A DNA stretch of 64,000 nt. Source: Micromonospora rhizosphaerae. GTDB lineage: Bacteria; Actinomycetota; Actinomycetes; Mycobacteriales; Micromonosporaceae. This document shows positions 1-63,868 of this stretch, piece by piece. Where the stretch lies: positions 5,456,001 to 5,520,000 of the forward strand of contig NZ_FMHV01000002.1 of NCBI RefSeq assembly GCF_900091465.1. The letters run 5' to 3'. Within the stretch, counting starts at the first letter, position 1. Each line of letters begins with the position of its first letter. A program made the position numbers and the translations under genes. Under the pieces are notes generated by a model. The model saw only the letters and a program-made list of their open reading frames with translations, searched no databases and had not been told where the DNA came from.

Positions 1-2302
1 GGACGTCGCGGATCACGGCGCTGTCGACGGCGTTGTCGGCCCACGCCAGGTCGACCTCGAGTCCGCCGCGAGCGCGCAACCCCACTACCCGGCCGCCGGG
101 CCATTCCGCGGGCAGTGCGGGCAGCAGCCGGATACGGCCGTGGTGGCTCTGCACAAGCATCTCGGCGATCGCCGCCGTGAAGCCGTAATTGCCGTCGATC
201 TGGAACGGCGGGTGCGTGCTGAACAGGTTCGGCAGGAGCCCGCCCCACTCGGATCCGTCGACGGGGGCGAGCCGGCGGTGGTCGCGGTCGAATGCGGTGA
301 TCGCCTCGAGCAGTAGTGCTCGGGCTTCGGCGGCGTCGCCTAGCCGGGCTCGGAGCGCGATCTTCCACGCCCACGACCAGCCCATCGCCCCAGGTCCGCG
401 GGCGTCGAGGAACCGGCGCGCCGCCTCGGCGAGCTCGGGCGTGCGGACGGGGTCGATGAGATCGAGCGGGTAGAGCGCGACGAGCGGAGACAGGTGCCGA
501 TGGTGCGGGTCCTCGTCCGCGACATCCGTCGACCATTCGCGCAGCCGGCCGTCGGGGCCGGCCTCGAGTTCGGGGAGCCGTTCGAGGGCGGCGGCGAGGT
601 CGACGTCGAGCGGGTCGTCGAGGCCGAGCACGGCGATGGCCGAGCGGGCACGCTCGAACAGCGCTCGGATGAGGGCGATGTCCATCGTCGTCGAGACGCT
701 GAGCGCTTCGGGCCGTCCATCGGGGCCGACGAACAGGTTCTCGGGCGAGGTCGACGGGATGGTGCGCAGCCGGCCGGTCGCGGGGTCGTCGACGAGCCAG
801 TCGAGGCAGAACAGCGCTGCCCCGCGCATGAGCGGCCATACGGTGTGCTCGAGCAGCTTGCGGTCGCCGGTGAACTCGTAGCGGTCCCAGAGGTTGTGGG
901 TGAGCCAGACGCCGCCCATCATCCAGATCGCCCAGCTCGGGGCGCCATGACCCATGCCGACCGGCAGGCTCCAGCCCCAGAGGTCGCTGTTGTGGTGGGC
1001 GACCCAGCCGCGGGCACCGTAGAGGCGGGCCGCGACGTCGGAGCCGGTGCTCGCGATTCGCCGCACGAGTGCGGTCAGCGGCTCGGTCGAGTCGTCGAGT
1101 CCGACCACTGGTGCCGCCCAGTAGTTCATCTGCGTGTTGATGTTGATCGTGTAGTTGGACGACCACGGCGGTCTGAGCTCGTCGTTCCAGATCCCCTGCA
1201 GGTTCGCGGCGGGGTTGCCTGAGCGCGACGACGCTGCGAGCAGGTAGCGGCCGTACTCGGCGAGCACGGTCGCCCGGAGGCCCTCGTCGTCGCCGTGGAG
1301 GATGTCGCGCTCGAGGTCCCAGGTGCCGGCGCGCCGACCGCCGATCGCGAAACGCGCCCCCGAGGCATGGTCCCGCACGTCGGCGAGATGCTCCGAGAAC
1401 CGCTCGTGCGCCGTCTGCCGCAGGGCGGCCGTCGCGTTCGAGCGCGCGCGCTCCCGGATCTCCTCGCGGGACGAGCTCCGCCAGCCAGCGCCGTCAGGGT
1501 CGGCCCACCACAGTCCGGCCCTGCTCGACGTCGAAAGAGCGATCAGCAGTCGGCTCGCCCCGCGGATCCGCAGGGTGTCGCCAGCGGAACCCTCGGTTCC
1601 GTCGCTTCGCACCGCGAGCGCGGCGGCCCCGAAGTGGTCGAAGCCGTCGGCTTCACGGGAGAGGTAGCGATGAGCTGGCTCCACCGCCCTTTCGTGCAGG
1701 GGGGCACCGTCGATCGGCGCGACCACGTCGAGGGTGATGCCTGTCGCGGCGATGTCGCGTCCCGCCTCGCGCAGGCGCGTCGACAGGCGTATGTCGACGT
1801 CGAGCACCGGCCGGTCGGCGAGGTACTCGACGAACAGGCAACCGGCGGGCGCGGAGACGAAGGTGCGGCGCGTGGCGCCGGTGCCGTCGATCTCGAGCGA
1901 TTCGGTCACGTGCGCCTCGTCGAGGTCGAGGATGCGGGCGGCCCGGCCTTTCGCGACGGCCGCGCCGCGCGTCTCGAGCTCCAGGTCGACGAACGGCAGG
2001 AACTCCTGGGAGTACGGACCCTCGAAACTCATCAGGAGGGCTTCGGCGCGTCGGAGGTCTGAGGTGTCGATCGCCGATCGGATTCCGGCGAGGCGTTCGG
2101 GTCCGGATCCGCCCGCAACGAGATCGGCAAGCGCGTCGGCCGGCCCGTCGGGGTGGCCCGACCAGATGGTCGCGTCGTTGACCTGGATGCGGGTCTGAGC
2201 GCCGCCAAAGACCATCGCGCCGATGCGGCCGTTGCCGAGGGGCGTGGCCTGCACCCACTCGCGTGCGGGTTGCCGCCAGGCGAGGCGGAGCGTCTCGGCC
2301 AT
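1..2302 (-). CDS. GH95-type alpha-L-fucosidase, C-terminus cut by window edge
   Basis: The reading frame is open from an ATG at 2302 to the window edge, about 767 residues, so the C-terminus is missing. It begins with the family's sugar-handling N-terminal region ([15 protein letters not shown]) and carries the (alpha/alpha)6-barrel signatures of glycoside hydrolase family 95: [31 protein letters not shown] and [17 protein letters not shown]. Family members release alpha-L-fucose (some alpha-L-galactose) from plant or host glycans by inversion. No signal peptide is seen at the N-terminus, suggesting a cytoplasmic enzyme acting on imported oligosaccharides. The ATG overlaps the stop of an upstream permease fragment (TGATG), so it was probably the last or a late gene of an ABC-transporter operon. 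Family assignment is firm; substrate is inferred. Confidence 0.9.
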
Positions 2303-2466
2303 CACTTGATCCCCGAGAAGCCGATGGAGTTGACGATGCGCGACGACTGCTTGAACACCACCAGCGCGAGGGTGAGCGGCGGCAGGGAGTACGCCTCCTC
2401 GGTCTCGGTCGACAGACCGGGGATGAACTGCCGCGTTCCGCGAGCCGTTGATTCCAAGAGCGCCAT
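2302..2466 (-). pseudogene. C-terminal remnant of a carbohydrate ABC transporter permease
   Basis: A 54-residue frame starts at an ATG preceded by a purine-rich GGAGCAGGAAG and ends TGA overlapping the ATG of the GH95 gene. Its second half ([13 protein letters not shown] then [14 protein letters not shown]) resembles the last transmembrane segment and terminal tail of CUT1-type sugar permeases, which usually end in a short ...GxxxxGxK stretch. The permease core and EAA loop are absent, so the rest of the gene is lost. It could alternatively be a small unrelated protein that is translationally coupled to the glycosidase. The permease reading is an inference from the C-terminal pattern and operon position. 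Confidence 0.4.
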
Positions 2467-2552
2467 TGGTCTTCCTGCTCCCGCATGTTCGACCTGTCGC
2501 GCAGTGCTCGACGGCGAGATGCCCGATCTCGTCCTGCGCTTGCCGCGACAGA

Positions 2553-2571
2553 GTAAACATGATTAATTTAC
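2553..2571. promoter_or_regulatory. AT-rich inverted repeat between divergent genes
   Basis: A short AT-rich island with arms GTAAA and TTTAC nine bases apart stands out in otherwise GC-rich DNA. It lies between the fucosidase operon remnant (minus) and the SGNH hydrolase gene (plus), where an operator or promoter for either direction is expected. The function is inferred from composition, symmetry and position only. Confidence 0.35.
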
Positions 2572-14473: not shown

Positions 14474-15343
14474 GGGCGCGTCTCATTTGGATGGTCGTTG
14501 GCCTGGGGCATGATCTGCTCCCGTGGACGGGGCCATGATCCGTACTTGGGCGCCGGATGATCTCTGGGAGATAGCGGCGCCGTTGATCCCGCCCGCGCCG
14601 GTTCGTCGGCAGGGTGGTGGTCGCCGGCGGGTGGATGACCGGGCGGTGCTGGCCGCGATCGTGTACGTGACCCAGGCGGGTTGTTCCTGGTGGAAGCTGC
14701 CTGAGGCGTCGTTCGGTGTCACCAGGGCCACCGCGCACCGCAGGTTCACCGAGTGGACCGCGGCCGGGTTCTGGCTCCGGCTGCACGAGGCGACCCTGGA
14801 CCGGCTCGGCGCCGACCGGCGGATCGACTGGTCGAGGGCGGTGGTCGACTCGATCAGTGTGCGGGCGGAAAAGGGGGCGATCTGACTGGCCCAAACCCGG
14901 TCGACCGCGGCAAACCAGGCAGCAAACTCCACGTCATCTGCGACCGGAAGGGGCTGCCCCTGGCTGTGCTGGTCACCGCCGCGAACGTCCACGACAGCCA
15001 ACTGCTGCTGCCCATGCTCGACAGCGTCCCGGCGATCCGCACACCCAACGGGCGCCGCCGGTGGCGGCCAGACAAGTTGCACGCCGACAAGGCGTACGAC
15101 GCCCGCGAGCTGCGCCGCGAGGTCCGGCGACGGGGGATCAAGGTACGCATCGCCCGTAAGGGCATCGAGTCCTCCACGCGTCTGGGCCGGCACCGCTGGG
15201 TCGTTGAAGCCTGCATGTCCTGGCTGATGCGCTACCGGCGCCTCGTTCGCCGCTATGACCGCAAGGGCGATCACTTCGAAGCCTTCGCCACCATCGCCAG
15301 CACCCTGATCTGCTACCGCCGCCTCACCAAATGAGACGCGCCC
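14474..15343 (+). mobile_element. IS5-family insertion sequence, 870 bp, TTA target duplication
   Basis: The element is bounded by perfect 17-bp inverted repeats (GGGCGCGTCTCATTTGG and its complement) and flanked by TTA on both sides (14471-14473, 15344-15346), the TNA-type duplication of the IS427 group of IS5. It carries one two-frame transposase. The stop codon of the transposase lies within the right repeat. Complete ends and intact frames indicate a potentially active copy. Confidence 0.92.
14535..15334 (+). CDS. IS5-family transposase, expressed by -1 frameshift
   Basis: The first frame (MIRTWAPDDLWEIAAPLIPP... to SVRAEKGAI) holds the N-terminal HTH part and the first catalytic Asp (VVDSIS). 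Its end lies on AAAAGGGGG (14869-14877); slipping back one base joins GGDLTGPNPVDRGKPGSK and the rest, with the second Asp in LHADKAYDA and the Glu in RWVVEACMSWL. The DDE triad is therefore only complete in the fused product, as in other frameshifting IS427-group elements. A GTG at 14523 is an alternative start. Confidence 0.88.
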
Positions 15344-16653: not shown

Positions 16654-16917
16654 TCATGCCGTCGGGTGGTGACCGAAGCCGGCCATCGCCACGCCAACCG
16701 CCTTCTCGTACAGCACCACATTGCTGAGACCTACCCGTCGCCCGTCAGCAAGGCTCCGGCACGACGGCCACATGATCGACCGCAGTCCCGGATGCTCGAC
16801 GACGCGGAGCGACTCACTCGACTCCAGCTCCACCCCGCTCTCGTCGCACCAGGCGACGACAGCGGACCAGAACCGGTCCACGCTCTCCCAGCCGTTGCAA
16901 AGAGCCTCAGCGGCTCT
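16654..16917 (-). pseudogene. C-terminal part of an unknown gene, cut by the IS607 element
   Basis: Starting at the element's 3' border, the minus frame reads ALCNGWESVDRFWSAVVAWC, then ELESSESLRVVEHPGLRSIM and ends VGVAMAGFGHHPTA at 16654. The composition is protein-like, with no start codon before the border, so the 5' part was probably displaced by the element. The matching N-terminal half is not recognised on the other side of the element, where sequence has also been lost. Family unknown. Confidence 0.4.
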
Positions 16918-17100
16918 CAGCAATTCCAGCCTTTCGGCTGGAAAGGTCCGTACCGGTGTCACCGGAGCCTGAGGGCTTCGGTGACCTGATGACGGTCTCC
17001 CGTTTCCTGCTGCCGCTGGTGCGGCAGGTTTGTGCCACCTGCCCACCCCGCCCTGGCCTTTCGGCTGGGGCGGGTGTTGCGGGTCTTCTGGTCGGCTCCA
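16918..17100 (-). ncRNA. predicted TnpB guide RNA (omegaRNA) scaffold region, copy A
   Basis: TnpB nucleases use a guide RNA transcribed from the 3' part of tnpB through the element's right end. Here the 42 bases after the tnpB stop match those of the second copy almost exactly and contain the hairpin CCAGCC-GAAA-GGCTGG (16926-16941). The last bases before the border are identical in both copies; downstream DNA, the expected guide, differs. The 5' boundary is arbitrary. Confidence 0.6.
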
Positions 17101-18404
17101 CGGGGTTTCGACGCTTGTGCGTCCTGGTCTCCGGCCACTCCGGTACCAGTGGCCGCTGCGAGAGCGGCGAGGTTGCGGGCTGCGTTCTCGTCCCGGTCAA
17201 GGACGAGGCCGCAGGCGTCGCAGTGGTAGGTCCGGACGTGCAACGGCAGCTTGGCTTTCACCGCCCCGCAGCCCGAACAGGTCTTCGAGGACGGGTACCA
17301 GCGGTCGGCGACCACGGTCCGCCCGCCCGTCCAGCCGGTCTTGTAGGTGATCTGCCGCCGGATCTCGCCGAACCCGGCGTCGGCGACCTTGCGGGCCAGG
17401 CGCCGGTTCTTGAGCATTCCCGCGACGTTGAGGTCTTCGACCACCACGGTGGCGTATTCGGCGGTGATGGTGGTGGTGAGCTTGTGCAGCGCGTCGGCGC
17501 GCAGGTTCGCCACCCGGTAGTGGACGCGGTTGCGCTCAAGGTCGGCCTTGAGCCACCGCTTCGACGGCGTCTGCCTGGTGCGGCGGTCCAGCCCCTGCCG
17601 GCGGGAGACACGGCGACACAGGCGCTTGAGCTGTTTGATGGCCTGGTCGTAGTGGGCTGGGTTGGACACGTACCGGACTTCACCTGCCGAGTCGGCCATC
17701 ACGGCGAGGCACTTCACGCCGAGGTCCACGCCGGCGGCCACTTCGGGCCGGCTCGGAGTGCGCTGGGCGCGTTCGATCTCCACCTGGAAGGACACGAACC
17801 AGCGGCCACGTTCCAGCCGCACGGTGGCGGACAGGATGCGGGCGGTGCCGTTATCCACGCGGCGCTCAAGCTTGCGGGTGGACTCGTGCGTGCGGATCGT
17901 CCCGAGCCGGGGCAGGGTGATGTGCCGTCGGTCCGCCTCGACACGGATGGTGCCGGTGGTGAACCGGCAAGACATGCGCGCCCGGTGCTTCGACTTGCGG
18001 CGAGGAACGCCCATACGCTGGCCTTTGCGCTGCCCACGCTTGGACTTGGCGTAGTTGTCAAACGCGGCAGCTGCGGCTGCCAGCCCGGTGTTGTATGCCT
18101 CCTTGGAGTTCTCCTGCCACCAGCGGCAAAAACGCGGGTCGGTCTTCTTGACCTGGTTGAACTCCTTGCGCAGCGCGGGCAGCGACCACGGCCGCCACGG
18201 CGTCAGATGCTGCCCCGAAACGCCGTAGGACTCCTCCGCCCCGCGCTGCCACCACGATGCCGAAACCCACGACACGGCCCAGTTGTAGGCTGCACGCGCC
18301 GCACCGCAGTGCGACCGCAGCGCCTGCTGCTGACTGGCGTTTGGGTCGAGCGCGAAGCGGAACGCCTGCACCACCCAGCCGGGGCGCGGTTCGAACTTCT
18401 TCAC
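16959..18404 (-). CDS. tnpB: TnpB, RNA-guided DNA endonuclease of IS607-type element A
   Basis: A 481-residue protein with the TnpB order: N-terminal KKFEPRPGWVVQAFRF and SHCGAARAAYNWAVSW helices, a wedge/beta domain, then a RuvC fold with Asp227 in AAGVDLGVKCLA, Glu323 in VVVEDLNVAGM and the DRD at 403-405 in LDRDENAARNLA. A four-Cys zinc ribbon (CSGC at 376-379, CDAC at 395-398) lies between. All catalytic residues are present. The GTG start overlaps the orfX stop (GTGA), so it was expressed by coupling. TnpB cleaves DNA next to a short motif using the omegaRNA, favouring retention of the element at its donor site. Confidence 0.92.
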   Translation of the reverse strand: MKKFEPRPGWVVQAFRFALDPNASQQQALRSHCGAARAAYNWAVSWVSASWWQRGAEESYGVSGQHLTPWRPWSLPALRKEFNQVKKTDPRFCRWWQENSKEAYNTGLAAAAAAFDNYAKSKRGQRKGQRMGVPRRKSKHRARMSCRFTTGTIRVEADRRHITLPRLGTIRTHESTRKLERRVDNGTARILSATVRLERGRWFVSFQVEIERAQRTPSRPEVAAGVDLGVKCLAVMADSAGEVRYVSNPAHYDQAIKQLKRLCRRVSRRQGLDRRTRQTPSKRWLKADLERNRVHYRVANLRADALHKLTTTITAEYATVVVEDLNVAGMLKNRRLARKVADAGFGEIRRQITYKTGWTGGRTVVADRWYPSSKTCSGCGAVKAKLPLHVRTYHCDACGLVLDRDENAARNLAALAAATGTGVAGDQDAQASKPRGADQKTRNTRPSRKARAGWAGGTNLPHQRQQETGDRHQVTEALRLR

Positions 18405-18621
18405 CGCCCGCAGTCTCCACGATGCACCGCCCACGTCGAGTGGTTGAACGGATCAACACCGGCCCATCGCAGGGCGGCGATGTCCAGGTCGCTCAACAGC
18501 TCCGGGTCGATCTCTCCGCAGGTATCGGTGTGGGCACGCACCAGCTCCTTACTGGCGCGAAATGCCATGTCGGAGGCGATCAACTCTTCCTCCGGGCTCC
18601 GGAAGTGCCTGGCTCCCGCTA

Positions 18622-19751
18622 GTGTCGTGAGTCGTTAATTCGGCCGCAGATAGTAGGCTGTGGGGGTGGCTGGTCGTCCTCGTGGTCTTGTCGAGCTGAC
18701 TGATGATGAGCGTGCGTGTCTGACCCGGTGGGCGCGGCGGGGTAAGTCGTCACAGGCGTTGGCGTTGCGGTCGAAGATCGTCCTGTTGTGCGCCGATGGG
18801 CTGGTCAATACCCATGTCGCGCAGCGGCTTGGTGTGTCGCGGGACATGGTGGGCAAGTGGCGTAGCCGGTTCCTGGCGCGCCGGTTGGAGGGCCTGGTCG
18901 ACGAGCCGCGGCCTGGGGCGCCTCGCCGGATCAGCGACGACCAGGTCGAGGAGGTCATTGTTCGTACGCTGGAGCAGCAGCCGGCCAATCAGGACAGTCA
19001 CTGGTCGACACGGTCGATGGCCAACGCCACCGGGTTGTCGCAGACCGCGGTGTCGCGGATCTGGCGGGCGTTCGGGCTCAAGCCGCATCTGGTGGACACC
19101 TGGAAGCTGTCCGCGGATCCGCTGTTCGTGGAGAAGGTCCGTGACGTGGTCGGCCTGTACCTGGATCCGCCGGTCAAGGCGATGGTGCTGTGCGTGGACG
19201 AGAAGTCGCAGATGCAGGCCCTGGAGCGGACCCGGCCGATGCTGCCGATGATGCCCACGGTCCCGGCCCGACAGACCCACGACTACGTTCGTCATGGTGT
19301 GGCGAGTCTGTTCGCCGCGTTCGACGTCGCCACTGGCACGGTCATCGGGCAGGTCCACCGCAAGCACCGTCACCAGGAGTTCCTGCGCTTCCTCAAGACC
19401 ATCGACGCGAACACCCCCGCCGAGTTGGACCTACACCTGATCCTGGACAACTACGCCACCCACAAGACCCCGGCCGTGCAGCGATGGCTGGCCGCGCATC
19501 CCCGCTTCCACCTGCATTTCACCCCGACCTCGGCGTCCTGGCTGAACCTCGTCGAGCGGTGGTTCGCCGAACTGACCAACCGGAAACTGCGCCGATCCAG
19601 CCACCGGAGCCTCGCCGAACTCGAAGCCGACGTCCGCGCCTGGATCGACGCATGGAACGCCGACCCGAAGCCCTTCGTCTGGACCAGGACCGCCGACGAC
19701 ATCCTCAACAGCGTCGCCACCTACTGTGGCCGAATTAACGACTCAGGACAC
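18622..19751 (+). mobile_element. IS630-family insertion sequence, TA target duplication
   Basis: Inverted ends of about 27 bp (GTGTC[G/C]TGAGTCGTTAATTC then GGCC) with a single early mismatch are flanked by TA (18620-18621 and 19752-19753), the duplication of IS630/Tc1-type elements. The element is 1130 bp with one transposase gene. It interrupts orfX. Collapsing the insertion recreates GGCTCCCGCTAGGAGCC, a perfect 6-bp inverted repeat around the TA, so the target was a small hairpin. Confidence 0.92.
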
Positions 19752-19754
19752 TAG
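18660..19754 (+). CDS. IS630-family transposase
   Basis: A 364-residue single-frame transposase: N-terminal double HTH (LVNTHVAQRLGVSRDMVGKW and SRIWRAFGLKPHLVDTW) and a DDE domain with Asp in LCVDEKSQMQAL, Asp in LHLILDNYATHK and Glu in SWLNLVERWFAELT. The last codons run through the right inverted repeat and the stop TAG is completed by the TA duplication plus the flanking G, so its C-terminus depends on the insertion site. GTG 18660 is used; another GTG lies at 18666. It appears intact. Confidence 0.9.
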   Translation: MGVAGRPRGLVELTDDERACLTRWARRGKSSQALALRSKIVLLCADGLVNTHVAQRLGVSRDMVGKWRSRFLARRLEGLVDEPRPGAPRRISDDQVEEVIVRTLEQQPANQDSHWSTRSMANATGLSQTAVSRIWRAFGLKPHLVDTWKLSADPLFVEKVRDVVGLYLDPPVKAMVLCVDEKSQMQALERTRPMLPMMPTVPARQTHDYVRHGVASLFAAFDVATGTVIGQVHRKHRHQEFLRFLKTIDANTPAELDLHLILDNYATHKTPAVQRWLAAHPRFHLHFTPTSASWLNLVERWFAELTNRKLRRSSHRSLAELEADVRAWIDAWNADPKPFVWTRTADDILNSVATYCGRINDSGH

Positions 19755-20055
19755 GAGCCGGCGGGTGACCTTCTCCTCGGCGATGACCAACTTGTGGCGC
19801 CGCTCCAGCTCTTCGCGTTCCTCGCGGGCGATCCGCTGCGCCTGCCGCGCCGCACTCTCAGCCAGCAGTCCGATGAACCACTGCGGTGCACCGGCTGGAA
19901 CCTTCATCCACTCCCTGGCGTGCTGCGGGGTGAGCTGCTCGATCACATCAGCGGCACGCATTGCCGCCGCAACCTCATGCACCTTCAACTGCATGATGTT
20001 TGCCACCTGCACCGGGCACAGGGCGCGGTCGGCCTTCTTCTGCGGGCTGATCTTC

Positions 20056-20280
20056 TTACCCACGGCCTTCTTTTCCCGTTGCGGCGGCAACAGCGCGGGC
20101 GGCGCGGTTCTTCGCCGCCCGCTGGCCGTATAGACGTACACACATCGACGTGAGCACGTCAGTCATGTCTTTCACCAGGTCGTCCGTGGACTCCTCCGGG
20201 TCGAGGATCAGCAGCTCCCGGCCGGTAGCGGTCAGAGCGGCTTGCAGGTGCTCGACGCCGAAGCGCGCCAGCCGGTCCTT
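20056..20280 (-). pseudogene. tnpA: IS607 TnpA serine recombinase, C-terminal remnant
   Basis: The minus frame reads KDRLARFGVEHLQAALTATG, then DPEESTDDLVKDMTDVLTSM and ends RGQRAAKNRAAR-like to TAA at 20056, closely matching the C-terminal half of the intact TnpA at 61 kb. Upstream of KDRL homology stops abruptly, so the MerR-like DNA-binding domain and the catalytic serine are gone. It overlaps the orfX start by 8 bases. Confidence 0.8.
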
Positions 20281-20672
20281 TCGCCCTCCTCAACCAGCAA
20301 CTCCTCGACGACGGCAAGAGTTGCCGTTACCCGCCTGCTCCTACGCTGCACCACGTCCATGACGACGTCCTGCACTAGGATCTCGCCACCCGCTGTGGGG
20401 AGCCCGGCGGCGGCCATGAGCCGCCCGACGGGAGTCAACGGTCGCCGCTTGAAGAGTCCCACTGGCATCACCTTCGGTAACCGCGGCGTCCGGGCCGGTC
20501 GCCGTCCGGGTCGCCTGATCATGCCAGCCGCCTCCGTACCAATCAGCTTCGTTTCTTCCCGGCCTGCTGGTCGGCCCGGGCGCCGAACACCGCCCGCGCG
20601 GATCGCGGCTATGAGAATGCGCTCGCGTCGCGTACAGAGTTCCCCCGCCTACGTTCGCCTTGCGATGATCCA
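20281..20672. other. region upstream of the broken IS607 end
   Basis: A minus-strand frame from ATG 20468 (GAAGG upstream) reads MPVGLFKRRPLTPVGRLMAA and GGEILVQDVVMDVVQRRSRR before running out of register into the tnpA remnant. It could be the start of the host gene that received the element or a deletion junction. No family is recognised. The remaining bases up to the VOC gene show only weak frames. Confidence 0.3.
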
Positions 20673-37857: not shown

Positions 37858-38432
37858 GTGCGACACGAGGTCGCACGTGTTGAGTGAGTACGTCGATTGG
37901 AGGTCGGGTGTAGATGCCCGAGACGTAGCTCCCGGTCAGTGTCCGAGACCGGTCCCCGCCCTGACGTGCGTGGCTAGTAATGGCTGGGTGCGAAGCTCAG
38001 GGGAAAGCCCGAGGACTCCCGCACCGACTGGGAGTCACAGGTGAGGGGAAGGCCGAAAGGGTGAATATGGTGAACCCTCGTTGATGCCTCGTCACGGCAA
38101 TTCCCCGGGTCGGACATGTGGTGCCGGGGAGATAAAGAGGCTAGCCGCTGAGAGTCGGCAGACGACGATCGAGGACTCATCTACGGTCGTGTGGATACCG
38201 TCGCCTCCGGGGTCAAGAGGGCGCCCGACCCGGCCGTGTCTCACGCGTGTGGAACGTGGAAACCCCGGCACGGTCCACGATGTCCTCGGATGTCGTGGTA
38301 AGCCGACCGTAAGGAGAGCCCAACTCCGTGGCGGGAACAGGACGCCCAAGAAGCGAACGCCGGCAGGCTGAAAGGCAGCGGGAAAGCGGGAACGTTCAGA
38401 CCGGTCCTCCTACCGGTCGTTGTCGTATGGGC
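37858..38432 (+). ncRNA. group II intron RNA, domains I-III (5' part)
   Basis: Starting with GTGCGAC, the region has no convincing protein frame but many short self-complementary stretches typical of intron domain I (for example GTGCGACacgagGTCGCAC at the 5' end) and ends where the IS3 copy begins (GGC target repeat at 38430-38432). Domain-level folding was not computed. Confidence 0.7.
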
Positions 38433-44381: not shown

Positions 44382-44402
44382 AATCGCCCAAGCGGCTTGC
44401 TT

Positions 44403-44476
44403 GAGCCGTGTGCCGCGACGAGTGGCACGCACGGTTCTTAGGGGGGCGGGACGCAGCAATGCGTCCCGCCTACCCG
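44403..44476 (+). ncRNA. group II intron domains V and VI
   Basis: GAGCCGTGTGCCGCGACG followed by AGTGGCACGCACGGTTC (44403-44437) folds as the 34-nt domain V hairpin with the catalytic AGC-like base and GNRA-type loop replaced by CGAC/G; a second hairpin (GGGACGCAGCAATGCGTCCC) with a bulge A before the 3' end is domain VI. The 3' splice site is placed near 44476. Confidence 0.85.
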
Positions 44477-44497
44477 ACTGCGGACAGATGAGGGCCG

Positions 44498-60349: not shown

Positions 60350-61048
60350 GGAGGAACTAGTCGGTGCCTTGGCGGTCCTGCCGCAGGTACGCGGTGCCGT
60401 GCGTGAACGTCCGGATCTCGAACGTATGGCCCGCACGGCCCTCCCACGCGAACGGCACGATCATGAACTCATAGTGGTTGGCCTGTTGGAAGTCGTGCCG
60501 GAAGATCTGCCGCACAGCGATGATCTGGCCCGCCGTCGCGTCGTATACGTCGATCGTCGCCACGAGATCGTTGCCGGCCGTGACGTTGTCGATCGCGAGC
60601 TTGACCACGCCGGTGTTCCAGTCGGGCACGACGTTGTTGTTGTACGGCCCGTACGCGAGAAACCCCGGCCCGTCGGACGTGTTCGCCGACCAGCCGTCCC
60701 CGTCGGGGCGACCCACCTGGTGGTACGGCATCGACTCGGTTTCGAACATCAGCCCCCACCCGCCGTTGGTCTCGTTGGAGACCTTGGCGCGACGGGTTAC
60801 GCTGCCGAACTGGCCGATACTGCGGTAGTACACCCACCGCTCCCCGCCTAGGCTGAGGAATGCGGGCCCGTCGTTACCGAACCCGCTCTCTGGAGCGAGC
60901 GCCGGGTTCTGCCGGTAGTTCGACCAGGGGCCGGACGGGTTCGGTGCCCGGGCGAGCCCGCTCGACCACTGCGCGGTCTCAAAGGGGGCTAGCAACTGCT
61001 CCCGATTGCATGGGCAATCATAGTCGCATGTAGTCGTATCATGTCCGT

Positions 61049-61624
61049 GTGAAGCTCTCAGACTGGGCGCGCCAGCAGGGCGTGACCTATCAGACCGCCT
61101 GGCGGTGGGTGAAGGACGGCAAGATGCCCGTCCCTGTCCGTCAGGCGCCGTCTGGTACGTGGATCGTGGAGGAGGCGCCGGCCGCGGCCGGCCGGGTGGT
61201 CGTCTACTGCCGAATTTCCTCCAGTGATCAGAAGAGCGACCTGGACCGCCAGACCGCACGGGTCGTGGAGGGGGCAAACGCTCAGGGCTTCGCCGTGGCG
61301 GAGATCGTGACCGAGGTCGGCTCGGGCCTGAACGGCAAGCGCCGCAAGCTACATCGCATCCTCGCCGATCCGGCTGTGGCCGTGATCGTGGTTGAGCACA
61401 AGGATCGGCTGGCCCGGTTCGGCGTGGAGCAGCTGCAAGCCGCGCTCGCTGCGACCGGGCGCCGTCTGGTGATCATCGACCCGGAAGAGTCCACAGACGA
61501 CCTGGTCAAGGACATGGCCGACGCGCTGACGTCGATGTGTGCCAGGCTGTACGGACGGCGGGCGGCGAAGAACCGCGCCGCACGCGCTTTGGCCGCCGCG
61601 ACCGCCGCGGAACCGTCGGTGTGA
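61049..61624 (+). CDS. tnpA: IS607 TnpA serine recombinase
   Basis: A 191-residue protein: N-terminal MerR-like HTH (LSDWARQQGVTYQTAWRWVK then VPVRQAPSGTWIV), then the serine resolvase catalytic domain with the nucleophilic Ser in VVVYCRISSSDQKSDLDRQ, GSGLNGKRRKLHRIL and EHKDRLARFGVEQLQAALA. IS607 recombinases cut and join at short core sequences without long target duplications. GTG 61049 starts; the stop overlaps the tnpB start (GTGA). Confidence 0.93.
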   Translation: MKLSDWARQQGVTYQTAWRWVKDGKMPVPVRQAPSGTWIVEEAPAAAGRVVVYCRISSSDQKSDLDRQTARVVEGANAQGFAVAEIVTEVGSGLNGKRRKLHRILADPAVAVIVVEHKDRLARFGVEQLQAALAATGRRLVIIDPEESTDDLVKDMADALTSMCARLYGRRAAKNRAARALAAATAAEPSV

Positions 61625-63078
61625 AGAAGTTCCAGCCGCGGTCTGGTTTCGTGGTCCAGGCGTTGCGTTTCGCGTTGGACCCGAACGTCACGCAAGAGCA
61701 GCGGCTGCGGTCGCACTGCGGGGCGGCTCGTGCCGCCTACAACTGGGCCGTCTCCTGGGTGGTGGCGTCGTGGTGGCAGCGGAAGGCGGAGGCGTCGTAC
61801 GGCATCGGCGAGGAGGAGTTGACGCCGTGGCGGCCGTGGTCGCTGCCGGCGTTGCGGAAGGTGTTCAACGAGGTCAAGAAGACTGACCCGCGTTTTGCTG
61901 ACTGGTGGGGGGAGAACTCCAAGGAGGCGTACAGCACGGGCCTGGCGAACGCGGCGGCGGCGTTCGACAACTACGCCACGTCCAAGCGTGGGCAGCGTCA
62001 GGGCAAGCGCGTGGGGATGCCTCGGCAGAAGTCCAAGCACAAGGCCCGGCTCGCCTGCCGGTTCACCACCGGCACCATCCGGGTAGAGCCGGACCGGCGG
62101 CACGTCACGCTGCCACGGCTCGGGACGATCCGCACCCACGAGTCCACCCGCAAGCTGCAACGCCGCATCGCGAACGGTACCGCCCGCATCCTGTCCGCCA
62201 CGGTCAGGTTCGAGCGGGGCCGGTGGTTCGTCTCCTTCCAGGTCGAGATCCAGCGTGCCGCCGACCGCGCTGCGGCGCGCCCAGACGTGGCGGCAGGTGT
62301 GGACCTGGGCGTGAAGTGCCTCGCGGTGATCGCCGACAGCCAGGGCACGGTGCGGTTCGTGCCGAACCCGGCGCACTACGACGGCGCGCTCACGCAGCTC
62401 AAGCGGCTCTCCCGGCGGCTGGCCCGCCGCCGGGGGCCGGACCGGCGCACCGGACAGGAGCCGTCCGGGCGGTGGCTCGCCGCGAACACCGAGCGCAACC
62501 GCGTGCACCACCGGGTGGCGAATCTACGCGCTGATGCCCTGCACAAACTCACCACCGGCATCACCGCCGAATACGGCAGCGTCGTGGTCGAAGACCTCAA
62601 CGTGGCCGGCATGCTCCGCAACCGGCGCCTGGCCCGCAAGATCGCCGACGCCGGGTTCGCAGAGATCCGCCGCCAGATCGCCTATAAGACCGACTGGACG
62701 GGCGGCACCACCGTGGTCGCTGACCGCTGGTACCCGTCTTCCAAAACCTGCTCGAACTGCGGCGCCGTGAAAGCCAAGCTGCCGCTGCACGTCCGAGTCT
62801 TCATCTGCGACGCCTGCGATCTGGTCATTGACCGGGACGAGAACGCAGCCCGCAACCTCGCCGCCCTCGCGGCGGCAGTAACAACGGGTACCGGAGTGGC
62901 CGGAGACCCGGGCGTGCCAGCGCCGAAACCGCGTGAAGCCGACCAGAAGACCCGCGCCACCACCCGTAGCCGCAAGGCCACGGGTGGGCGGGCAGGTGGC
63001 GCAACCCTGCCACACCAACGGCAGCAGGAAACGCGAGACCGTCATCAGGACACCGAAACGCAACACGCACTCCGGTGA
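61621..63078 (+). CDS. tnpB: TnpB RNA-guided endonuclease of IS607 element B
   Basis: A 485-residue TnpB with N-terminal KKFQPRSGFVVQALRF, RuvC Asp in AAGVDLGVKCLA, Glu in VVVEDLNVAGML, the zinc ribbon CSNCGAVKAKL...CDAC and the final DRD in LVIDRDENAARNLA. All three catalytic acidic residues are intact. It differs from copy A at many positions but keeps the same length pattern and domain order. With an omegaRNA from its 3' end it is expected to cut empty copies of the donor site. Confidence 0.93.
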   Translation: MKKFQPRSGFVVQALRFALDPNVTQEQRLRSHCGAARAAYNWAVSWVVASWWQRKAEASYGIGEEELTPWRPWSLPALRKVFNEVKKTDPRFADWWGENSKEAYSTGLANAAAAFDNYATSKRGQRQGKRVGMPRQKSKHKARLACRFTTGTIRVEPDRRHVTLPRLGTIRTHESTRKLQRRIANGTARILSATVRFERGRWFVSFQVEIQRAADRAAARPDVAAGVDLGVKCLAVIADSQGTVRFVPNPAHYDGALTQLKRLSRRLARRRGPDRRTGQEPSGRWLAANTERNRVHHRVANLRADALHKLTTGITAEYGSVVVEDLNVAGMLRNRRLARKIADAGFAEIRRQIAYKTDWTGGTTVVADRWYPSSKTCSNCGAVKAKLPLHVRVFICDACDLVIDRDENAARNLAALAAAVTTGTGVAGDPGVPAPKPREADQKTRATTRSRKATGGRAGGATLPHQRQQETRDRHQDTETQHALR

Positions 63079-63119
63079 CACCGTTACGGACCTTTCCAGC
63101 CGAAAGGCTGGGATTGCTG
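62950..63119 (+). ncRNA. predicted TnpB guide RNA (omegaRNA) scaffold region, copy B
   Basis: The 42 bases from the tnpB stop to the element border equal copy A in length and include CCAGCC-GAAA-GGCTGG (63096-63111). The scaffold probably extends into the 3' end of tnpB. Bases beyond the border (from about 63120), part of the GH43-like gene, would act as the guide. Start coordinate is approximate. Confidence 0.6.
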
Positions 63120-63868
63120 ATACCCGACTACGGAATCAGCAACGGCGTCAGTGCTGCCCTCGTAGACCATGTAGTAGTACGAGCCCTTCTTGACTATGTC
63201 CCGTTTCCCGATCGTGCCGGCGTCCCACGAACCGCCCGGGCCAGTGCTCAGCACCGGGTTGCTGCCGCTCTTCGAGAGCGAGGTGAGGCTCGCTCCGCTG
63301 GCGAAGCCGACGCGCACGTCCGTGCCGTCGTACCCGTGGTAATAGAGGTGCCAGGTACCGTTCTCGTACCACAGGTTCGGCGTACTGATGTTCGCCGACT
63401 CCCACCCAGACGGGTTGTGCGTGAGGATCCGTCCGGCCTTCGTGAAGGTGACCCCGTCGGTCGACGTTGCCAGGCCGATGTCACCCGGGTTGGCGGGGTT
63501 GAAGCCAGCTCCCTCGTACACGAGGTAGAACGTGCCATTCACGTACGCCACGCCAGGGAAGCTCGCGATCCGGTCGTCCCAGGAGCCGGAGGGCCCGGTG
63601 TTGAGCACGATGCCGTGGTCGGTCCAGTTGACACCGTCGGTGGACGTAGCGAGGGCGGTTGCGAAGGTGCCGTCGGGCTTGTTCTTGATGTAGTACGCCC
63701 AGATCTCTCCGCCGATAGTGACCGTGGAGATGAAATGCATGTTGAACGGGACGGGCCACGCACACGTGGCGCCCCAGTCGTGCGCAGCGAATGGAGCGTT
63801 CGTCCTGGCGCGGCATCCTCGGGGTCGTGATATAGATCGCGATCTGTCAGTTAGAGTAGCCATAATCT

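Follow-up and report, generated by a model that had tools for sequence, protein, structure and literature searches.

A third gene lies between tnpA and tnpB of an IS607-type element

The DNA studied here is a 64,000-nt window from Micromonospora rhizosphaerae (host genome G000, 7.18 Mb; "the window" denotes this whole stretch throughout), whose minus strand contains a copy of an IS607-family insertion sequence (IS) with an additional frame, termed orfX, between the serine recombinase gene tnpA and tnpB, the latter encoding an IS607-type RNA-guided nuclease by family model (Table 1). An initial annotation of the same DNA had placed orfX as an extra gene exactly at the tnpA/tnpB junction, joined to its neighbors by overlaps of 8 and 4 nt, and both overlaps were located. 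The tnpB frame is open and carries the VDLG, EDLN, DRDENAARN, and CxxC motifs, and alignment revealed a conserved right end shared with a second IS607 copy in the window as well as with Streptomyces and Nonomuraea elements. Furthermore, orfX itself is split by an IS630-family insertion at a TA, with 31-nt inverted ends that are 94% complementary.

The least preserved gene of this copy is tnpA, which retains the C-terminal part alone: it reaches 69 bits on NF033518 against a cut-off of 110, and is 84% identical across 51 residues to tnpA of the second copy. The gene breaks off abruptly at 20277, and positions 20278-20522 hold unrelated sequence. Because tnpA is truncated, the window copy is not a complete element. 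The description of a three-gene element thus holds for gene order and overlaps, with tnpA reduced to a remnant. The proposal that all three genes were translationally coupled likewise has its overlaps in place, while the coupling itself is deduced from them and is not a measurement. As had also been annotated, the second copy (61-63 kb) joins tnpA, here of full length, straight to tnpB and contains no orfX.

Table 1. Coordinates of the IS607-type copies, the interrupting insertion, and the junction gene orfY (window positions, except for orfY)
Feature	Coordinates	Strand	Details
Right end of element	16917..16958	-	conserved; terminal TTGCTGA; by alignment
tnpB	16959..18404	-	481 residues, open; NF038280, 540 bits (cut-off 350)
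Overlap of orfX TGA and tnpB GTG (18404)	18401..18404	-	4 nt, GTGA
orfX, second piece	18401..18619	-	72 residues + TGA, stop 18401
IS630-family insertion	18619..19754	+	splits orfX
IS630-family transposase	18660..19754	+	NF033545, 276 bits
orfX, first piece	19752..20063	-	~104 codons as far as the insertion; open frame continues inside it to 19743
Overlap of tnpA TAA and orfX GTG (start 20063)	20056..20063	-	8 nt, GTGGGTAA
tnpA remnant (IS607 serine recombinase)	20056..20277	-	C-terminal 73 codons + TAA; NF033518 positions 128-187
Second-copy tnpA	61049..61624	+	191 residues; NF033518, 194 bits (cut-off 110)
Second-copy tnpB	61621..63078	+	485 residues; joined to tnpA via GTGA
orfY, in Micromonospora locus L093 (G205:C22:195006-198218)	2140-2553	-	137 codons

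orfX represents an unnamed actinobacterial protein family

The two pieces of orfX were searched separately, and their continuity rests on P0002, an intact relative of 176 residues with 11 member sequences. The first piece is 95% identical to P0002, 88% to P0003 from Micromonospora sp. NPDC003776, which is also an intact relative of 176 residues, and 68% to P0004; the second piece shares 97-99% identity with P0002 (97% on P0002 residues 103-176). Since such intact relatives exist, we firmly regard orfX as a genuine gene on the grounds of sequence comparison. Profile searches returned 86 and 42 proteins, 4 of the latter being new, which gives 90 identifiers including the window's own P0001. The 89 proteins beyond the window's frame form an actinobacterial family without a name, with sources in Streptomyces, Kitasatospora, Saccharopolyspora, Actinomadura, Actinoplanes, Dactylosporangium, Hamadaea, Parafrankia, Rhodococcus, and Micromonospora. 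In addition, P0077, P0086, P0087, and P0078 are larger members: three family proteins of 300-332 residues bear an extra C-terminal region, and P0078 has two N-terminal units.

Scans of both orfX pieces and ten relatives against Pfam, NCBIfam, and PHROG revealed no clear family model, and PADLOC at E 0.5 gave no match for P0002, P0048, P0087, or the second junction gene orfY described below. A structure model of P0002 (predicted local distance difference test, pLDDT, 93.9; predicted template modeling score, pTM, 0.68) shows a basic helical domain at the N-terminus, a helix of 44 residues, and a helical part at the C-terminus, and structure comparison yielded weak or no matches and no clear fold match. 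The 44-residue helix could pair two copies of OrfX, and a Cys/His metal site is possible in the C-terminal part of about half of the aligned family. The basic character of the N-terminus is a property of the family, as the net charge of residues 1-60 is positive in all 51 of 51 rows, with a median of +6.

orfX is found in the junction of further elements as well as on its own

Nine loci with DNA context were available for orfX. At four of them, belonging to three genera, tnpA and tnpB flank orfX: the window, L022 (genome G984, assigned to Streptomyces through its zero tree distance from P0027 of Streptomyces sp. R41), L008 (Micromonospora ATA32, an identical locus to L002 and L027), and L006 (Nonomuraea wenchangensis). 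Genome G382 was assigned to Micromonospora through its match to the contig of Micromonospora sp. ATA32. The overlap is conserved in these other copies. L022 has the three-gene order with overlaps of 1 nt (TAGTG) and 4 nt (GTGA), all of its frames being open (tnpA 191, orfX 178, and tnpB 483 residues), and its proteins score 184 bits on NF033518 (TnpA) and 504 bits on NF038280 (TnpB). In L006, where the overlaps are TAGTG and ATGA, both tnpA and tnpB are decayed. L008 enters orfX through ATGA and leaves it through GTGA; its TnpA reaches 216 bits on NF033518 and is 34% identical to TnpA of the window's second copy, and its TnpB, which belongs to a distant clade, fits only the general model NF040570 (111 bits, cut-off 100), a model that the window TnpBs match as well. 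A tblastn search at 1e-4 with the window TnpBs did not reach the TnpB of L008, and other TnpB queries reach its clade weakly.

The elements at these loci are otherwise IS607-family insertion sequences, and their third gene runs in the same direction as tnpA and tnpB. The remaining five of the nine loci, which have neither tnpA nor tnpB in the flanks examined, weigh against a dedicated role of orfX in such elements. Three of them are stand-alone genes of full or nearly full length, from Saccharopolyspora (L007), Parafrankia (L009), and Actinoplanes (L023, genus assigned through zero tree distance from P0039 of Actinoplanes sp. L3-i22), and two are partial copies, from Streptomyces (L010) and a viral contig (L011). 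The stand-alone copies argue that OrfX is able to work without TnpA or TnpB. The initial annotation had itself held that a mainly stand-alone occurrence of orfX homologs would speak against its view, and this turned out to be partly the case.

Two fusions, known from protein sequences without DNA, add to the evidence for the junction. In P0026, a TnpA C-terminus is in-frame with orfX and is 79% identical to the window remnant across 33 residues, and in P0084, an N-terminal part of TnpA (64% across 107 residues) is joined to an orfX end that shares 98% identity over 23% of P0002. Either may have arisen by deletion or through an error of assembly.

Most IS607 junctions are direct

For comparison, 138 IS607 tnpA loci were surveyed. 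Micromonospora supplied 110 of them: 99 out of 112 matches above the NF033518 cut-off, plus 11 that score lower. All 15 Streptomyces matches and 13 of the 15 in Actinoplanes were also included. These loci are not independent, as G334, G379, G365, G400, and G163 contribute many each, and the window copy and L006, found by other routes, are outside this set. tnpA is directly followed by tnpB in 129 of the 138 (Micromonospora 104, Streptomyces 14, Actinoplanes 11), orfX was found in two (L027 and L022), and an unrelated junction gene in one (L093). The tnpA frame is broken in two others (L127 and L128), three run into the end of a contig or stretch, and tnpB was not found at L110. The view that two genes are the norm for IS607 therefore agrees with the survey, and it is also in line with published descriptions, which give two protein-coding genes for the family (PMC6188088), the same two-gene make-up (PMC9956272), and two open reading frames in 80% of loci (PMC11061315), so that two genes are usual without being a strict requirement.

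Some surveyed loci deserve separate mention. L129 was considered as an orfX locus and rejected, the match being 25% identical and on the opposite strand, and it was counted as direct. The frame after tnpA of L110 is one that we take to be IS110-like. At L112, L118, L119, and L169, the junction reads TAGTG or GTGAG, and the frame after tnpA is 658-675 residues long; that of L112, the single one tested, has a Cas12f1-like TNB domain and is thus a large TnpB type.

An earlier count, in which 66 of 70 Micromonospora loci had a direct junction, gave the bases at the tnpA stop as GTGA in 56, CTGA in 9, and ATGA in 1. Since 57 of these 66 direct junctions have GTGA or ATGA, the stop-start overlap into tnpB belongs to the IS607 family and is not special to orfX, which keeps it. 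This bears on the possibility that OrfX acts on TnpB or on the guide RNA, as an inhibitor, chaperone, or switch, and is for that reason translated just ahead of tnpB. Although all four three-gene elements enter tnpB via GTGA or ATGA, as such a role would suggest, this is how tnpA and tnpB ordinarily meet; moreover, stand-alone orfX genes are without TnpB in the flanks examined. Because orfX adjoins two distant TnpB clades, a role bound to a single TnpB or a single guide RNA becomes less likely. An action of OrfX on TnpB or its guide RNA, which the initial annotation had listed beside possible roles in transposition, defense, or retention of the element, is improbable in our view.

A second, unrelated gene occupies the same junction

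The junction gene of L093, orfY, begins with a TAGTG overlap and ends with a GTGA overlap. The element is related to the second copy of the window (tnpA 71% and tnpB 70% identical) and is decayed, with an internal TAG in tnpA and a tnpB whose matches fall in two frames and lack about 50 residues. No meaningful match for orfY was obtained in Pfam, PADLOC, or PHROGs. Distant relatives with 32-50% identity were identified on 14 Streptomyces plasmid records, one of which covers at least 80% of the query, and in 10 of the 14 the relative lies less than 5 kb from the record end. Three of these records were opened, all of them linear, with the orfY relative 1.1 to 3.4 kb from the end and DUF3846, DUF932, and DUF6573 genes among its neighbors; we presume that these three families are tied to anti-defense regions.

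The plasmid-borne orfY relatives and their position near record ends could indicate that orfX belongs to the accessory genes of actinobacterial mobile DNA, serving anti-defense or establishment, and that IS607 merely carries it along, the junction being a neutral parking place. The orfX fragment on the viral contig and the stand-alone and domain-extended relatives (e.g., P0087 and P0077) would fit this explanation. However, tblastn revealed no orfX relative in 50,697 phage records (queries P0048, P0002, and P0019) or in 72,556 plasmid records (queries P0019, P0075, P0016, and P0048), the lack of a PADLOC match extends to P0002, P0048, and P0087, and exact overlaps repeat in four elements. We regard this explanation as rather unlikely.

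The three-gene form is scattered across the TnpB tree

A 30-row TnpB tree represents the three-gene form by the window copy, L022, and L008; L006 was omitted owing to its decayed tnpB. To account for these three rows, a minimum of 3 gains or losses on well-supported branches is needed. The two-gene copy of the window groups with the three-gene L022 (support 98/85), and the TnpB of L008 has two-gene neighbors within its own clade. Since shuffled labels likewise give about 3 changes for three rows (mean 2.9), the tree shows scatter of the three-gene form and nothing beyond. In a tree of orfX itself (81 rows), IS607-borne rows account for 2 changes and stand-alone rows for 2, and neither forms one group.

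The stand-alone copies in Saccharopolyspora, Parafrankia, and Actinoplanes, the rarity of orfX in IS607, and the decay of two of the four three-gene elements are what would be seen if orfX were a host gene captured by chance and without a function within IS607. This is nonetheless very unlikely in our judgment, given that three-gene elements are spread over different parts of the TnpB tree, that the orfX frame is open in L022 and L008, and that overlaps are kept at both ends.

Surroundings within the window and the host genome

The second IS607 copy is flanked by minus-strand frames at 60357-61277 and 63084-63863, which by eye resemble parts of one gene; this suggests that a gene around 60357-63863 was split by its insertion. 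Two more IS607-type TnpB genes are encoded in the same genome (L018 and L019), and tblastn with the window tnpA found no tnpA near them in the stretches examined. A RAGATH-18-type guide RNA was not matched by Rfam in the window at gathering scores, although an actinobacterial reRNA (right-end element RNA) may score below this threshold. Rfam matches to group II introns were found at 37931-38048 and 44401-44478 (RF02012, RF00029), about 6.4 kb apart. Finally, the list of open reading frames contains transposase-like frames divided over two reading frames at 14523-15334 on the plus strand, which presumably resemble IS5-type elements with a frameshift.

Interpretation and comparison with known systems

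The orfX gene and its placement are firm. Four elements from three genera have orfX in the junction, and a fifth has the unrelated orfY there, while relatives exist without a third gene. We infer that the junction serves as a cargo slot. Stop-start coupling on the tnpA-tnpB transcript would allow translation of a short frame that arrives there with both overlaps, so that this frame would need no promoter of its own and would leave tnpA and tnpB undisturbed. For OrfX, which is basic and helical, a small accessory protein that binds nucleic acid is the most probable identity, and its likeliest job would be tuning the element (through expression, binding of the ends, or strand exchange) or aiding establishment of the element in a new replicon. 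We hold this explanation as a whole, cargo slot and nucleic-acid-binding accessory protein together, with moderate confidence at best. A further-reaching version is put forward more tentatively: the junction of actinobacterial IS607 elements may be a standing slot with coupled translation that unrelated small genes (orfX, orfY, and probably others) enter and leave precisely, and OrfX may found a new element-encoded family of accessory proteins that bind nucleic acid and steer transposition or protect a newly arrived element.

If this is true, the third co-translated gene would constitute a regulatory or protective layer not present in the literature covered; alternatively, it would show how very small elements gain cargo while staying functional. 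In a search that extended to titles and abstract openings among the matches listed and to few subscription papers, no third gene in IS607 was described, and the text of PMC10711439 contained none of six cargo-type terms. The paired copies of the window, with and without orfX, together with the fully open Streptomyces element, make the question directly testable.

As for known systems, MerR-type regulators (PbrR691, 5gpe) were named as a near system, and the structural matches of OrfX are weak or absent. Insertion sequences with passenger genes are similar in that a small transposable element contains an accessory gene. Their passenger genes, however, sit beside the transposase, whereas orfX lies inside the gene pair with overlapping codons. 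TnpB of IS607 and IS605 is related to Cas12, and IS607 elements are characterized by the lack of terminal inverted repeats and of target duplication and by GG cleavage sites. According to PMC8612924, IS607 and IS605 are among the simplest mobile elements, with genes solely for transposition and its regulation. The elements described here share with the IS607 family a tnpA and tnpB of known models in the same order, the stop-start overlap, and the conserved right end, but the gene added between tnpA and tnpB in four of them makes these a variant of the family and not ordinary members.

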